A stretch of 64,000 nucleotides of DNA from Kluyvera intermedia (GTDB taxonomy: Bacteria; Pseudomonadota; Gammaproteobacteria; Enterobacterales; Enterobacteriaceae), in assembly GCF_021440345.1 (NCBI RefSeq), contig NZ_JAKCNS010000011.1, positions 124,001-188,000 of the forward strand, in the 5' to 3' direction. The notes beneath the pieces are model-generated. The model was not told the DNA's origin. It did not search any database and saw nothing but the letters and a program-made list of their open reading frames with translations. The position numbers and the translations under genes are program-made. Shown one piece after another: positions 16,398 to 21,533 of this stretch. The number at the start of each line of letters is the position of its first letter. The stretch's first letter is position 1.

Positions 16398-16408
16398 CAG
16401 GAGAGACT

Positions 16409-16768
16409 ATGACGGATTCGGTCACCATCTACCATAACCCGCGCTGCTCAAAAAGCCGTGAGACCTTAAGCCTGTTGAAGGACAACGGCATCGAGCCAAG
16501 CGTGGTGCTCTATCTGGAGACACCGCCGGATGCCGCCGCGCTGCGCAAGCTGCTAAAAATGCTGGGCATGACCAGCGCTCGCGAACTGATGCGCCAGAAA
16601 GAAGATCTTTATAAAGCGCTTAATCTTAGTGACAGCCAGCTTACTGAAGAGGCATTAATCCAGGCGATGATAGACAATCCAAAGCTGATTGAGCGCCCGA
16701 TTGTCGTGAGCAACGGTCAGGCGCGAATTGGTCGTCCACCGGAACAAGTACTGGAAATTGTTCGCTAG
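16409..16768 (+). CDS. yfgD: ArsC-family protein YfgD
   Basis: 119-residue thioredoxin-fold protein of the arsenate-reductase family. YHNPRCSKSRETL contains the family active-site Cys, and RPIVVSNGQARIGRPPE is the conserved C-terminal Arg segment, so unlike YffB it keeps the residues associated with glutaredoxin-linked arsenate reductases. Activity for this member is not established. Operon with bepA (11 bp gap). It converges, with 6 bp to spare, on the accessory regulator gene that begins the inserted island. Confidence 0.9.
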   Translation: MTDSVTIYHNPRCSKSRETLSLLKDNGIEPSVVLYLETPPDAAALRKLLKMLGMTSARELMRQKEDLYKALNLSDSQLTEEALIQAMIDNPKLIERPIVVSNGQARIGRPPEQVLEIVR

Positions 16769-16774
16769 TTTCCA

Positions 16775-17632
16775 TTAAGGCCGCAGCGCTTCCAAAAAAG
16801 CCTGCGGCGTCATATTCCCCAGTTTTTTCTGTTCCTTTCCGCGATTAAAAATTGAACACAGCCTGGTGACCAGCTCATCCGGCGTGCAAATCCGAGCGGC
16901 GGGAATAATCTCTGCCAGCGGCAGCATCACCTGAACCGCTAATCGCTTATTTACCGCCTGCGTCGTGCGCCCGGAAATCCCCCTCTCGCGCAACCGATGA
17001 CTGAGCGCATTCACCAGCCCCTCGTTCAACCACTCGTCTGTTTGTATCTCAACAGATTGGATATCACCCGGGAACTGCGCCAATATCTCATCCAGCCAAT
17101 TCACCACCAGGGAAGAAGACATACCGGAATAGACGCGCGCATAGCACCAACCGCTAATCGGCTCCTGCGCCCACAGTAAATGGTGGTCGCCATCGTCATC
17201 CATGTGCAGCGATAAAAAACGGTAGTGCAGCGTCAACGACTGCGCTTTGGCTCCCGCCTTTAGCGCTTTTTTGCCGCACAGCACCTCACCGGCACCCCGC
17301 TGATACGAAGGCTTCAGATAGCGATTTAACGTTGCGCGGGACAGCGGGATCTCAAGCCCCTCCACCACCATAAACAGCAGATCGTCCAGCGGAGCCCGGA
17401 GTATTTCCCGTAAAGCGTTAATCAATACAACCTGCTCTTGTCTCATCGCTTTGTGTACAACAACGGGAGTGGTACTCCGATCCGCCGTCTGCTCCCGATT
17501 TCGCCAGCGGCGTACCGTCGTTACCGAAATTCCCAGCTCACGCGCCAGTTCACGGTCGCTCTTATCCGACTCCTGCAGATATTTCCTGACTCTAGGCGTC
17601 GTCGTGGCGTTGGCGTGCAGCTTAATTTCCAT
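16775..17632 (-). CDS. Transposase-derived putative regulator of the EIIC-aminopeptidase operon
   Basis: 285-residue protein of unassigned function. Residues 5-46 (LHANATTTPRVRKYLQES…ELARELGISVTTVRRWRNRE) form a helix-turn-helix of the kind that opens IS481/IS3-type transposases, and LSRATLNRYLKPSYQRG (97-113) looks like the second HTH. Residues 138-220 resemble the RNase-H-like DDE core, with Asp145 in LHMDDDG and Asp199 in VEIQTDE at the expected spots. The C-terminal motif carrying the last catalytic Glu (NGKxER in active enzymes) is not present. No terminal inverted repeats were seen. It is divergent from the PTS operon across 166 bp, the typical place for a local regulator. Start ATG follows AAGGATATCT. 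DNA binding and regulation are inference. Confidence 0.7.
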   Translation of the reverse strand: MEIKLHANATTTPRVRKYLQESDKSDRELARELGISVTTVRRWRNREQTADRSTTPVVVHKAMRQEQVVLINALREILRAPLDDLLFMVVEGLEIPLSRATLNRYLKPSYQRGAGEVLCGKKALKAGAKAQSLTLHYRFLSLHMDDDGDHHLLWAQEPISGWCYARVYSGMSSSLVVNWLDEILAQFPGDIQSVEIQTDEWLNEGLVNALSHRLRERGISGRTTQAVNKRLAVQVMLPLAEIIPAARICTPDELVTRLCSIFNRGKEQKKLGNMTPQAFLEALRP

Positions 17633-17693
17633 AGATATCCTTTCGTTTTTCGTGACTAATCATATGAGATTTACATATATTAAGTCGATACGA

Positions 17694-17709
17694 TGTGACC
17701 CGTTTCACC
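17694..17709 (+). promoter_or_regulatory. CRP site, class II position
   Basis: TGTGACCCGTTTCACC has a perfect TGTGA half and a 4/5 TCACA half with the required six-base spacer. Its centre (17701.5) falls exactly 41.5 bp before the start point predicted from the -10 at 17731-17736, the class II activator position. Confidence 0.78.
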
Positions 17710-17730
17710 TTTCCGCTTTCGGTTTTCTTC

Positions 17731-17736
17731 AATAAT
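17731..17736 (+). promoter_or_regulatory. Predicted -10 of the PTS EIIC operon
   Basis: AATAAT matches TATAAT at 5 of 6 positions, giving a predicted start near 17743 and a leader of about 56 nt. No good -35 hexamer is present, as expected if CRP replaces it. Confidence 0.6.
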
Positions 17737-17798
17737 CCCTTCGTCGTTTTCTATTACATAACACACACAATGTCCGTTAATCTTATACGGAGTTCACA

Positions 17799-19115
17799 AT
17801 GAACAATGTTCTGGGATTTTTAGAAGAGAAATTGATGCCGATTGCCGCGAAAACCGCACAGCAGCGTCATCTCGGTGCCATTCGCGGCGCATATGTCTCC
17901 TTCATGCCTTTCATTATCGTGGGTTCCATTCTGCTGGTCATTTCGTCGTTCCCGAATCAGACCTATCAGCAGTTTATGTCTCACTACTTTGGTGCCAACT
18001 GGAGTGCCATCATCGAGATCCCGTTTAACGCGGTGTTCTCCACCATGTCACTGTTTATCAGCTTCCTCGTTGCCTACCGCCTGGCCGAACACTACGAGAG
18101 CGATCGCCTCTCATGCGGCATCCTGGCACTGGTCAGCTTCTTAATACTGACGCCGTTTATCAAAGTCGCCGAAAACGGCGGCATCACCGTGATGCCGGTC
18201 GAATGGATTGGCACCAAAGGTCTATTTGTTGCCATGATTGGTTCGCTGCTGTGGACCGAGCTGTTCTGCTGGCTGAAGCGCAAAAAGCTGGTTATCAAGA
18301 TGCCAGAAGGCGTGCCGCCTGCGGTGCAGGAGTCTTTCGCCGCGCTGCTCCCGGCGTTAGTGGTAATGATTCTGGTGCTGGCTATCCGCATCGGTTTTGA
18401 AAACACTCACTATCAGACCATCCACCAGTTTATTTATGACGTGGTTGCAACGCCGGTTCGCCACTTCGGCACCTCCTATTTCGGCGCGCTGATGACGGTC
18501 TTCAGCATCACCATTCTGTGGTCGGTGGGCATTAACTCCGGCTCAATGGTCAACGGCATCATTCGCCCACTGTGGATGGAAAACCAGACCGACAACATCG
18601 CTGCCATTCAGGCCGGTGTTACCCCGCCACATATCATTACCGAGCAGTTCTTCGACATGATCTGGATGGGCGGTGCCGGTGCAACGCTGTCGCTGGTTAT
18701 CGCGATGCTGATTTTTGCCCGTAGTAAAAGTATGCGTGAAGTGGCGCGGCTTGGGGCTGGGGCATCGGTCTTTAACATCAACGAACCGGTGCTTTTCGGC
18801 CTGCCGGTTATTATGAACCCTATTATGCTGATCCCGTTCAACCTGGTGCCGCTGGTCCTGGTGACGATTCAGTATGTGGCAATGAAAATTGGCATGGTCG
18901 CGGTGACTACCGGGGTGTTTATTCCATGGACGCTGCCGCCGGTCATCAGCGGCTTCATCGTCACCGGGCATATTTCCGGGAGCGTGATGCAAATACTGAA
19001 CCTGCTGATTGGCGCGATGCTCTATCTGCCGTTTATGCGCATCCTCGACAAGCAGTACCGCAGTGCAGAAATAAGTGAAACTCAGGGATCTAATACGCTA
19101 GCAAAACAGGAGTAA
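17799..19115 (+). CDS. PTS EIIC, cellobiose/chitobiose (Lac) family, orphan
   Basis: 438-residue membrane component of a phosphotransferase transporter of the lactose/cellobiose family (CelB/ChbC-like), usual length. About ten hydrophobic spans are visible. The signature FNINEPVLFGLPVIMNP holds the conserved substrate-site Glu (Glu329). No EIIB or EIIA domain is fused and none is encoded nearby, so it must borrow EIIA/EIIB (for example chitobiose or cellobiose components from elsewhere) or act differently. First gene of a three-gene operon: 3 bp separate it from the glycosylasparaginase. ATG follows TACGGAG. The sugar is unknown; the operon context points to a glycosylated amino acid or peptide, while family membership alone points to a beta-linked disaccharide. 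Confidence 0.9.
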   Translation: MNNVLGFLEEKLMPIAAKTAQQRHLGAIRGAYVSFMPFIIVGSILLVISSFPNQTYQQFMSHYFGANWSAIIEIPFNAVFSTMSLFISFLVAYRLAEHYESDRLSCGILALVSFLILTPFIKVAENGGITVMPVEWIGTKGLFVAMIGSLLWTELFCWLKRKKLVIKMPEGVPPAVQESFAALLPALVVMILVLAIRIGFENTHYQTIHQFIYDVVATPVRHFGTSYFGALMTVFSITILWSVGINSGSMVNGIIRPLWMENQTDNIAAIQAGVTPPHIITEQFFDMIWMGGAGATLSLVIAMLIFARSKSMREVARLGAGASVFNINEPVLFGLPVIMNPIMLIPFNLVPLVLVTIQYVAMKIGMVAVTTGVFIPWTLPPVISGFIVTGHISGSVMQILNLLIGAMLYLPFMRILDKQYRSAEISETQGSNTLAKQE

Positions 19116-19118
19116 GTG

Positions 19119-20072
19119 ATGTGGGGAATAATTGCAACCTGGCGTATGGCGCTGGAAGGGGTTAGCGAATCAGCCACGGCGCTGGCTAGCGGGAATAAAG
19201 CGACGACCTCGGTAGTGGATGCCGTAGTCGCCGTAGAAGATTTTCCATTCTACAAATCGGTGGGCTACGGCGGCCTGCCCACCGAGAACGGCGAAGTCGA
19301 ACTGGATGCCGCCTGGATGGACGGCGATACGCTGGCCTTCGGCGCGGTGGGCAATCTGGTGGATATCGCCAACCCGGTAAAAGTGGCCCACGCGCTGGGC
19401 CGCCAGCGCTACAACTCGCTGCTGGTCGGCCAGGGCGCACGCGAATGGGCGCTAAGCCAGGGGTTTAGCGATAAAAAAATGCTCACCGAGCGCGCGATGC
19501 AGCACTACCGCAAACGCTGCCGCGAAACGCTGGATAAAGGGCTCAGTCCGTACGACGGTCATGACACCGTTGGCGTCATCGCGCTGGATAAGCAAGGTTC
19601 GATGAGCGTGGCAACCTCCACCAGCGGCCTGTTTATGAAAAAGCGCGGGCGCATTGGCGACTCACCCATCATCGGTTCCGGCTTCTACTGCGACAGCGAA
19701 ATTGGCGCGGCAACGGCGACCGGCGTCGGTGAAGACCTGATGAAAGGCTGCACCAGCTATGAAATCGTCCGCCGTATGGAGCAGGGAATGACCCCGCAGC
19801 AGGCGGCCGATTCGGTGGTGTACGAGCTGGAAGATAAGCTGATGTCGCGCTTTGGTCGCGCAGGCGACCTGTCCGTCGTCTGTATGAACCGCAAAGGCGA
19901 GTTTGGCGCAGCCACCAATATCAAAACCTTCTCTTTTGTGGTGGCGACCGCGACCCAGCCGCTGACGGTGTTCCGCGCCGAACGCATCAAAGAGAAAACC
20001 CACTACCAGCCGGTGGACGATGCCTGGATGCAGGCCTATGCCGACCGCATCCGCGCGCCCATCGAGGAGTAA
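19119..20072 (+). CDS. Glycosylasparaginase-family Ntn hydrolase
   Basis: 317-residue enzyme of the N4-(beta-N-acetylglucosaminyl)-L-asparaginase family, which hydrolyses the sugar-Asn amide bond to aspartate and a 1-amino sugar. Motifs known from bacterial glycosylasparaginase appear in order: ATWRMALEG (substrate-side Trp near the N-terminus), SVGYGGLP, HDTVGVIALD with the autoproteolysis site before Thr150, GRIGDSPIIGSGFY and GAATATGVGE. Cleavage would give chains of about 149 and 168 residues. There is no signal peptide, so it acts in the cytoplasm on imported substrate. ATG at 19119 lies 6 bp after AGGAG; an in-frame GTG one codon earlier is less well placed. The GDSP and Trp motifs favour the glycosylasparaginase branch over plant-type isoaspartyl peptidases. 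Confidence 0.88.
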   Translation: MWGIIATWRMALEGVSESATALASGNKATTSVVDAVVAVEDFPFYKSVGYGGLPTENGEVELDAAWMDGDTLAFGAVGNLVDIANPVKVAHALGRQRYNSLLVGQGAREWALSQGFSDKKMLTERAMQHYRKRCRETLDKGLSPYDGHDTVGVIALDKQGSMSVATSTSGLFMKKRGRIGDSPIIGSGFYCDSEIGAATATGVGEDLMKGCTSYEIVRRMEQGMTPQQAADSVVYELEDKLMSRFGRAGDLSVVCMNRKGEFGAATNIKTFSFVVATATQPLTVFRAERIKEKTHYQPVDDAWMQAYADRIRAPIEE

Positions 20073-20075
20073 ATG

Positions 20076-21533
20076 ATGATTAACTACCGTCTATTCACGA
20101 CGCTTTCCAGCGAACTGGCGCAGGGCCACCTCATTACTTTTCCCGGCAGCCCTCTGCTAAAGGAAAACCTGTTGCAGGATAATCCGCTCATTGCGGAAAT
20201 GACTACGCTAGCCGAACACGGCAAACTCGCAGATACCCGCTTCGGCTGCGGGCCATTCGCTCGCATCACCCTCATTCCGCTCAGCGCCTGGCAGGACAGT
20301 CTGACCGACTCACTGCTGACGTATCTGCGTCCCCTGTTTTCTGCCCCGGTCTGCAATGAGGTGCTGCTGGACTGTAGCGATATTGATGACACTGTGCTGG
20401 CAAAAAACCTGCGTTTTCTCTTCAATCAGGCGCACAAATTAACTGATTTGGGGCTGAAAACCGTGAGTGACCGCGGTGTAATTCTGCGTTGCGTCAACGC
20501 TTACTGCGCGGGCAGCGATGCTTCGCGGCTGGAGGTATTGTTCGCTCAGCAGCAGGCCATCGCCAACGGGATGGTTGCCGCGCGTCGGCTGGCGGATATC
20601 CCATCGGAACAGTGCACGCCGCAGTTTGTGGTAGAAGAAGCCCAGCGCCTGTGCGCCGCCTTCCCAAATCTGCGCTGCGAAGTGCTGGATGAACGGGCCA
20701 TCGTTGAGCAGGGTCTTGGCCTGCTGCATGCGGTGGGTAAAGGTGCCAGCCGCCCTCCTCGCCTGCTGGCGATTCACTATGACGGCGCCAGCAGCGGCCC
20801 GGTACGCAGCTATGTCGGTAAAGGTATTACCTTCGATACCGGCGGGCTGTGGCTGAAAGAAGGTGCTGGCATGTACACCATGAAATACGACATGTGCGGC
20901 GCGGCCAACGTGCTTGGGCTGATGCTGAGCATCGCCGAGCTGAAGCTGTCGGTGCGCGTCATGGGCGTGCTGGCACTGGCGGAAAATGCCATCGGGCCTG
21001 ACGCCATGCAGCCGGGCAGCGTGGCCCGCGCTTGTAACGGTATGACGGTAGAGATCAACAACACCGATGCCGAAGGCCGGCTGGTTCTGTCAGATGCCAT
21101 CGCCTGGGCCAGTCAGCGCCATGAGCACACACGCTATATTATCGATTTGGCTACCCTGACCGGTGCCGTCGTCAAGGCGCTGGGCTACGAGTTGAGTGGG
21201 TTGATGACTCAGGACAACGCGCTGCGTAGCGCTCTGACCGTCGCCGGTGAGCAGAGCGGAGATGAAGTCTGGTCCCTGCCGCTGGATGCGCGCATGAAAA
21301 AGCAAACCGAAAGCGCGATTGCTGATTTGTGCAACACGCCGACCAACAACGCCGCTATCAGCGCTTCTGCGGCTTGGTTACTGCATCACTTCTGCCCGGC
21401 CCATATTCCGTGGGCGCATCTTGATGTCAGCGGCACGGCGCTGTGGCGCGAAGGTGGGAAAAGCGTGGCGTCAGGCAGGCCGATTCCGCTGTTAATGCAA
21501 CATCTGCTGAATGATTTGGCGATTGAAGAATAA
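20076..21533 (+). CDS. M17-family leucyl aminopeptidase
   Basis: About 485-residue dinuclear-metal aminopeptidase of the leucyl aminopeptidase (M17) family that removes N-terminal residues from peptides. The C-terminal catalytic domain has VGKGITFDTGGLWLK (catalytic Lys and metal Asp), MKYDMCGAANVLG, and the family signature NTDAEGRLVLSDA (metal Asp/Glu and catalytic Arg). The N-terminal 160 residues diverge from PepA, so this is a paralogue rather than housekeeping pepA. Two ATGs follow the previous stop directly; the second (20076) lies 6 bp after GGAG, the first only 3 bp. The operon position after a glycosylasparaginase suggests trimming of glycopeptides, since glycosylasparaginases usually need a free alpha-amino group on the Asn. 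That role is inferred. Confidence 0.9.
   Translation: MINYRLFTTLSSELAQGHLITFPGSPLLKENLLQDNPLIAEMTTLAEHGKLADTRFGCGPFARITLIPLSAWQDSLTDSLLTYLRPLFSAPVCNEVLLDCSDIDDTVLAKNLRFLFNQAHKLTDLGLKTVSDRGVILRCVNAYCAGSDASRLEVLFAQQQAIANGMVAARRLADIPSEQCTPQFVVEEAQRLCAAFPNLRCEVLDERAIVEQGLGLLHAVGKGASRPPRLLAIHYDGASSGPVRSYVGKGITFDTGGLWLKEGAGMYTMKYDMCGAANVLGLMLSIAELKLSVRVMGVLALAENAIGPDAMQPGSVARACNGMTVEINNTDAEGRLVLSDAIAWASQRHEHTRYIIDLATLTGAVVKALGYELSGLMTQDNALRSALTVAGEQSGDEVWSLPLDARMKKQTESAIADLCNTPTNNAAISASAAWLLHHFCPAHIPWAHLDVSGTALWREGGKSVASGRPIPLLMQHLLNDLAIEE

Follow-up and report, generated by a model that had tools for sequence, protein, structure and literature searches.

REG, a protein of 285 amino acids encoded at 16775-17632 on the minus strand of a 64,000-nucleotide stretch of Kluyvera intermedia DNA (the window), is probably a domesticated, catalytically dead transposase of the IS481 family that works as a local, sequence-specific regulator of the neighbouring EIIC-glycosylasparaginase-aminopeptidase operon, most likely as an activator together with CRP. 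Its identification combines the open reading frame, profile searches, a structure model, a tree and an alignment of the catalytic triad, and homology, predicted fold, lost triad, selection, co-occurrence and conserved upstream elements were all computed. The initial annotation of this DNA had suggested a transposase reused as a sequence-specific regulator, a proposal that is supported by the loss of the triad, purifying selection, co-occurrence with one operon and a predicted operator whose place does not depend on that of the regulator gene.

The best NCBIfam model for REG was IS481 transposase (E 4.8e-11, residues 20-193), at 42.7 bits versus a cut-off of 224 bits. Above the Pfam cut-off, an N-terminal HTH alone was detected (HTH_28/HTH_23), and Pfam and the AlphaFold model place it at residues 13-45 (17498-17596, minus strand). 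In a tblastn search against plasmids, the ISGlo3 transposase was found to match the whole of REG with 28% identity (E 2e-17), and 36 of the N-terminal 60 residues are identical between the two proteins. In the AlphaFold model (pLDDT 85.9), the HTH helices (residues 13-44) are followed by a second helical set at residues 65-105 and by an RNase H/integrase domain at residues 126-285. The top Foldseek match of this model was the IstA transposase (E 1.8e-10), and VIA-align superposed it on retroviral integrase with a Z of 13.6 and an rmsd of 2.2 over 133 residues. The transposase layout of an HTH and an RNase H-like domain, as first read from the sequence, is thus borne out by the Pfam HTH, the IS481 profile and the RNase H/integrase-like model, the fold being that of a prediction.

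The catalytic residues of this domain appear to have been lost. The initial annotation had placed Asp145 and Asp199 near the catalytic positions; in the alignment with IS481 transposases, the DDE columns of REG are instead occupied by His136, Gln197 and Val233, and the two Asp residues lie beside them. D1, D2 and E are each intact in 19 of 19 aligned IS481 proteins. Among the 78 proteins of the divergent REG clade, a set that counts in the window REG, several proteins from one genus and some species twice, D1 is found in none, D2 in three and E in two, the E column being a gapped part of the alignment and the least certain of the three; the whole triad is found in none. Tail-to-tail relatives (n=5) retain D1 in four cases and neither D2 nor E. 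The triad count was made without L154 and L164, and the alignments, the tree and the residue counts without L047 and L054, whose frames are broken, and L055, a match of 25 residues; the structure alignment comprised 44 sequences from a subset of loci. Two further traits of an insertion sequence had been noted as missing, and both are: the transposase C-terminal segment NGMVERFNGR, which corresponds to the terminal NGKxER motif sought earlier, is absent from REG in the alignment with IS481 transposases, and no inverted repeat of at least 12 bases frames REG in 16400-18000. True IS481 elements carry terminal ends of the type TGTCAGGTCCCGGATGATT. REG is accordingly predicted to be catalytically dead and unable to cut DNA.

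The neighbouring operon starts with a gene for an EIIC of the PTS lactose/cellobiose family (17799-19115, plus strand; profile searches), followed by a gene for an Asparaginase_2 protein (19119-20072, plus strand; Pfam and sequence comparison) and a third gene for an M17 leucyl-aminopeptidase-like protein (20073-21533, plus strand; profile searches). The nearer relative of the Asparaginase_2 protein is glycosylasparaginase (E 1e-57), with isoaspartyl peptidase/L-asparaginase more distant (E 1e-37). The earlier description of a gene divergent from a catabolic operon with a short shared control region holds, the facing gene being that of the PTS EIIC at a distance of 166 bp. Of the 83 loci with a match, 80 have the REG and EIIC genes divergent and three have REG tail-to-tail. 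EIIC, the Asparaginase_2 protein and the M17 protein occur together in 53 of 54 loci, a count that includes several genomes of one genus. The exception, L055, comes from a Hyphomonadaceae MAG, where REG is matched, at 76%, by the first 25 residues of a 112-aa ORF. The neighbours bepA, arsC and hda are missing in 10 of the 53 operon-bearing loci, indicating that the operon sits elsewhere in those genomes. Genes for EIIA and EIIB adjoin the operon in L048-L053 and in two loci of another family than that of the source genome, and had no match at E 1e-8 in the examined flanks of L001-L046. The operon at 17799-21533 appears to encode the import and degradation of a GlcNAc-asparagine-like compound; such compounds are the likely substrate because glycosylasparaginase is the nearest relative and because some versions of the operon include EIIA and EIIB.

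The divergent control region (17633-17798, 166 bp) was delimited by alignment of such regions, and in 34 aligned of 81 divergent regions it contains three conserved blocks: AATCATATGAGATTTA, TGTGA-N6-TCACC and ATAATC. The first, at 17658-17673 on the plus strand, is the proposed REG operator, conserved in the clade. The second, at 17694-17709 on the plus strand, is a CRP-like site that agrees with 9 of 10 consensus positions. A predicted -10 hexamer of the EIIC promoter, AATAAT (17731-17736, plus strand), gives a predicted start at about 17743, and the centre of the CRP-like site in the window then lies at -41.5, the class II position, with respect to a start that is itself predicted from sequence. 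A -10-like hexamer is present at the expected place in 16 correctly assigned regions, ranging from AATAAT and GATAAT to a weak TAAGGT. The CRP-like site appears degenerate in Hafnia, Providencia and relatives in the alignment. The distance from operator to CRP-like site is 35 or 36 bp in 78 of 87 regions (36 bp in the window), and 16 bp in one, 24 bp in two and 27 bp in three regions; L051, L079 and L080, where the alignment puts the CRP-like site at its usual place, were left out of these spacing classes. Strict helical phasing of the two elements was considered and dropped, because both genomes of the other family show 24 bp. The source genome contains a single exact match of the operator pattern, at the REG locus. 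A wider regulon in this genome was not upheld, since four one-mismatch matches were obtained versus two for the reversed control.

Tail-to-tail loci provide a natural rearrangement in which the position of the regulator gene is separated from that of the operator. Five genomes from two genera of the family and the two genomes of the other family carry REG in this orientation at the distal end of the operon; four of the five and both of the latter were mapped, giving six loci. With the operator word taken from L091 and 500 mononucleotide shuffles as controls, all six were found to contain the word before EIIC (13-15 of 15 matches; 0-3 of 500 shuffles as good), and it was not found before the tail-to-tail REG (8-11 of 15; 132-500 of 500 shuffles as good). 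The CRP-like site is also present before EIIC in all six, with 8 or 9 of 10 positions. A conserved operator is thus found at the target promoter whatever the position of the regulator gene, and its persistence before EIIC indicates that the element belongs to the EIIC promoter, beyond mere autoregulation. Within the tail-to-tail group, L089-L092 also share, as judged by eye, a hairpin-like stretch CAAGAATTGTCTCTTG about 40 bp before EIIC, in the EIIC leader.

The preferred mechanism is as follows. The HTH of REG is predicted to bind the conserved element at 17658-17673, and CRP would most likely bind 36 bp downstream of it, at the class II position -41.5. REG would most likely be an upstream activator and, together with CRP, bring RNA polymerase to the EIIC promoter during a shortage of preferred sugars, provided that a specific signal is also received. 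This would couple the import and degradation of a GlcNAc-asparagine-like compound to carbon limitation and to that signal. The RNase H-like domain, which is under purifying selection and devoid of an active site, probably has a function in dimerisation, in sensing an effector or in both. Binding of DNA, activation over repression, binding of CRP, the substrate and the effector are all features that we infer from the computed results.

One alternative is that REG represses both the operon and itself until a substrate-derived inducer releases it. Divergent gene pairs are often under repressors, and the -10-like hexamer of a weak sigma-70-like match for REG (TCGACT-18-TATGAT, 17659-17688, minus strand) falls within the operator, consistent with autorepression, but this promoter match is at chance level for the region. 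In the window, the operator is positioned some 70-85 bp before the predicted EIIC start, beyond the usual footprint of RNA polymerase, and neighbours a CRP-like site at an activator position. The tail-to-tail loci, moreover, keep the operator at EIIC, an arrangement left unexplained by autoregulation of REG. Repression is considered unlikely on these grounds, and activation together with CRP remains the preferred reading.

The proposed operator resembles the inner part of an IS481 terminal repeat. The ends of elements from the nearest IS481 subgroup are of the TGTCAGGTCCCGGATGATT type, and the operator read in the direction of REG, ATCTCATATGATT, matches the inner IS481 end GTCCCGGATGATT. An IS-end matrix was built from 12 hand-aligned ends of six elements (L085, L086, L087, L154, L162 and L167), leaving out L088, L164 and L165, which have partial ends, and elements without clear ends. 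Of 65 distinct divergent regions, 41 had the best match of the 13-bp inner-end matrix precisely on the operator and in the IS orientation, whereas 300 matrices with permuted columns gave on average 0.01 such regions and never more than one; because permutation also destroys the GATT core, this control shows that letter order matters and not more. When regions were tested singly, the 13-bp matrix found the operator in 7 of 13, with 3-63 of 200 shuffles as good (47 of 200 for the window region), and it found it in only one of the six tail-to-tail loci. The full 19-bp matrix was rejected as a description of the operator: its best match was at the operator in one (L051) of 12 REG regions, and no score was significant (28-97 of 100 shuffles as good). 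The resemblance is carried by the inner 13 bp alone and rests largely on an ATGATT core. Considering the weak single-region, 19-bp and tail-to-tail results, a likeness between operator and inner IS481 end is supported, and descent of one from the other is not proven.

This likeness, and the conservation of the HTH with IS481 transposases, would also suit an architectural or silencing protein that covers IS481-type ends and for which the link to the operon is secondary. Such a role is very unlikely, as REG strictly co-occurs with one operon, and the operator is conserved at one promoter with its single exact pattern match in the source genome.

REG has one match in its own genome. In a search of 295 genomes of the family, all 33 genomes with a match had a single one; that of G158 (locus L093) proved to be a real IS481 transposase, apparently full-length and 56% identical to that of ISGlo3; relatives of the ancestor of REG are thus still present in the family. 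The many identical copies with inverted repeats that would mark an active element were not seen; REG is single-copy and free of framing repeats. REG, EIIC (at least 70% identity) and the asparaginase (at least 65%) share one set of 32 genomes among the 295 of the family, a figure that counts related genomes. The sole extra asparaginase match, in G264, has 47% identity, and EIIC matches at 40-43% were assigned to other PTS systems. Comparison of the window gene with five Kluyvera genes shows purifying selection on REG, with a dN/dS of 0.10-0.14 for the gene and of 0.02-0.10 over residues 1-60. In Kluyvera genomosp. 3 YDC799 (L047), REG is frameshifted, probably through a sequencing error because many genes there are in pieces; in Trabulsiella odontotermitis 01 (L054), REG is frameshifted and the M17 gene is also in two pieces. 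No match was obtained by a DNA search of E. coli genomes or by a protein search of phage records, and eight loci were matched in viral contigs, comprising three full-length transposases and five partial ones. The possibility that REG remains a transposase, or is an IS copy that decayed recently and has no cellular role, can be rejected as hardly credible despite the clear IS481 homology, given the lack of a whole triad, of the C-terminal segment and of framing inverted repeats, the single match per genome (that of G158 being the real transposase), purifying selection and the conserved place beside one operon.

A second group of related proteins was encountered in an order-wide search, in which 57 of 295 genomes matched REG and 25 new loci (L191-L215) were obtained. 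Of these loci, 22 adjoin one protein family and eight lie near a second kind of protein; the single member scanned of each was a beta-ketoacyl synthase and a phosphopantetheinyl transferase, respectively. The three loci beyond the 22 are the two loci of the other family described above and one IS481 transposase. The 22 loci are taken to be PfaR before PfaA of pfa (EPA/DHA) clusters, the name PfaR being applied because of the position before a PfaA-like synthase. None of the 17 aligned PfaR proteins retains a triad residue. In a tree of 56 proteins, REG and its tail-to-tail relatives, including those of the other family, fall on one side of a branch (support 100/99), and a single origin of the EIIC-operon regulator fits this best. 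The PfaR clade (100/100) is separate from that of REG (100/99), with transposases between them, and a joint REG and PfaR clade was not rejected (p-AU 0.39). REG neither branches inside the PfaR clade nor lies directly before pfaA; it precedes the PTS EIIC operon.

Upstream of pfaR, two groups of loci share a block of the type AGTnTCGGGTGATTGTAT, which in the first group runs, by eye, into a promoter-like pair TTGTAT-N17-TATATT. In 19 of 25 rows, or in 16 of 22 without L218, L219 and L220, which repeat other rows, the 13-bp matrix had a match in the IS orientation whose score was reached by no more than 1 of 200 shuffles. In two of these rows, L197 and L198, it matched a variant, GTTCCGGCAGATTG, that is conserved in their own group. 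Weaker or negative rows were L214, L196, L212, L209, L205 and L200 (4, 15, 47, 105, 147 and 162 of 200 shuffles as good, respectively), and the full 19-bp matrix was weaker than the 13-bp one here too. The IS481-end-like block, which is found before many of the PfaR-type genes of L194-L215, may be the PfaR operator.

How does REG compare with known systems? Like the IS481-family transposases of ISGlo3 and ISRme14, it combines an HTH with an RNase H-like domain, and its proposed operator resembles the end sequence of IS481 elements; unlike them, it has no triad, terminal repeats, C-terminal segment or multiple copies. PfaR, found beside the synthase gene of pfa (EPA/DHA) clusters in marine Gammaproteobacteria, shares with REG an IS481-like HTH (27 of 59 and 25 of 60 N-terminal residues identical in two examples), the lost triad, one match per genome and an IS-end-like upstream block, but it adjoins a different operon and forms a separate clade. 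In addition, the PfaR block continues, as judged by eye, into a -35-like hexamer ahead of pfaR, whereas the REG operator lies upstream of a CRP-like site. A 2020 J Bacteriol paper on pfa regulation reportedly describes PfaR as an activator. In the available text of a 2016 paper, PfaR was taken for a non-catalytic transposase-like regulator and was modelled on the Mu transpososome, without catalytic residues, a result given there as unpublished data (PMC4744452). Judging from that text, a protein of this kind is already in print (PMC4744452). Among the literature matches listed, which are open-licence papers, none on the REG clade was found; as far as these listings reach, the second clade, its target operon and its operator are new, as is the resemblance of the upstream elements of both clades to transposon ends.

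The operon itself has a parallel in the alf-2 cluster of Lactobacillus casei, a glycosylasparaginase pathway for fucosyl-GlcNAc-Asn according to the available part of its description (PMC6960285). As described there, both combine transport, a glycosylasparaginase and a peptidase with one local regulator, but alf-2 has an MFS permease and a GntR-type regulator, and that part of the text names neither a PTS EIIC nor a transposase-derived regulator (PMC6960285).

The REG clade thus stands beside PfaR as a second clade and is a clear example for which the target operon is defined and an operator is predicted. Transposase-derived transcription factors are well known in eukaryotes, and few cases have, to our knowledge, been described in bacteria. 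The similarity of operator and transposon end offers a cheap and direct route to testing how end recognition becomes gene regulation. A further parallel is found in Enterobacter, where TldR, a nuclease-dead TnpB, has, as far as the available text on it goes, likewise changed from a transposon protein into a regulator of transcription. TldR derives from TnpB and is guided by RNA; REG differs from it in being derived from a DDE transposase of the IS481 type and in having its own HTH. We tentatively suggest, as a possibility held at less than even confidence, that one IS481 subgroup gave rise to regulators at least twice, as REG and as PfaR, that both read the old transposon end as an operator, and that the dead RNase H domain binds an effector or contacts RNA polymerase or CRP, which would make these proteins a DDE counterpart of TldR.
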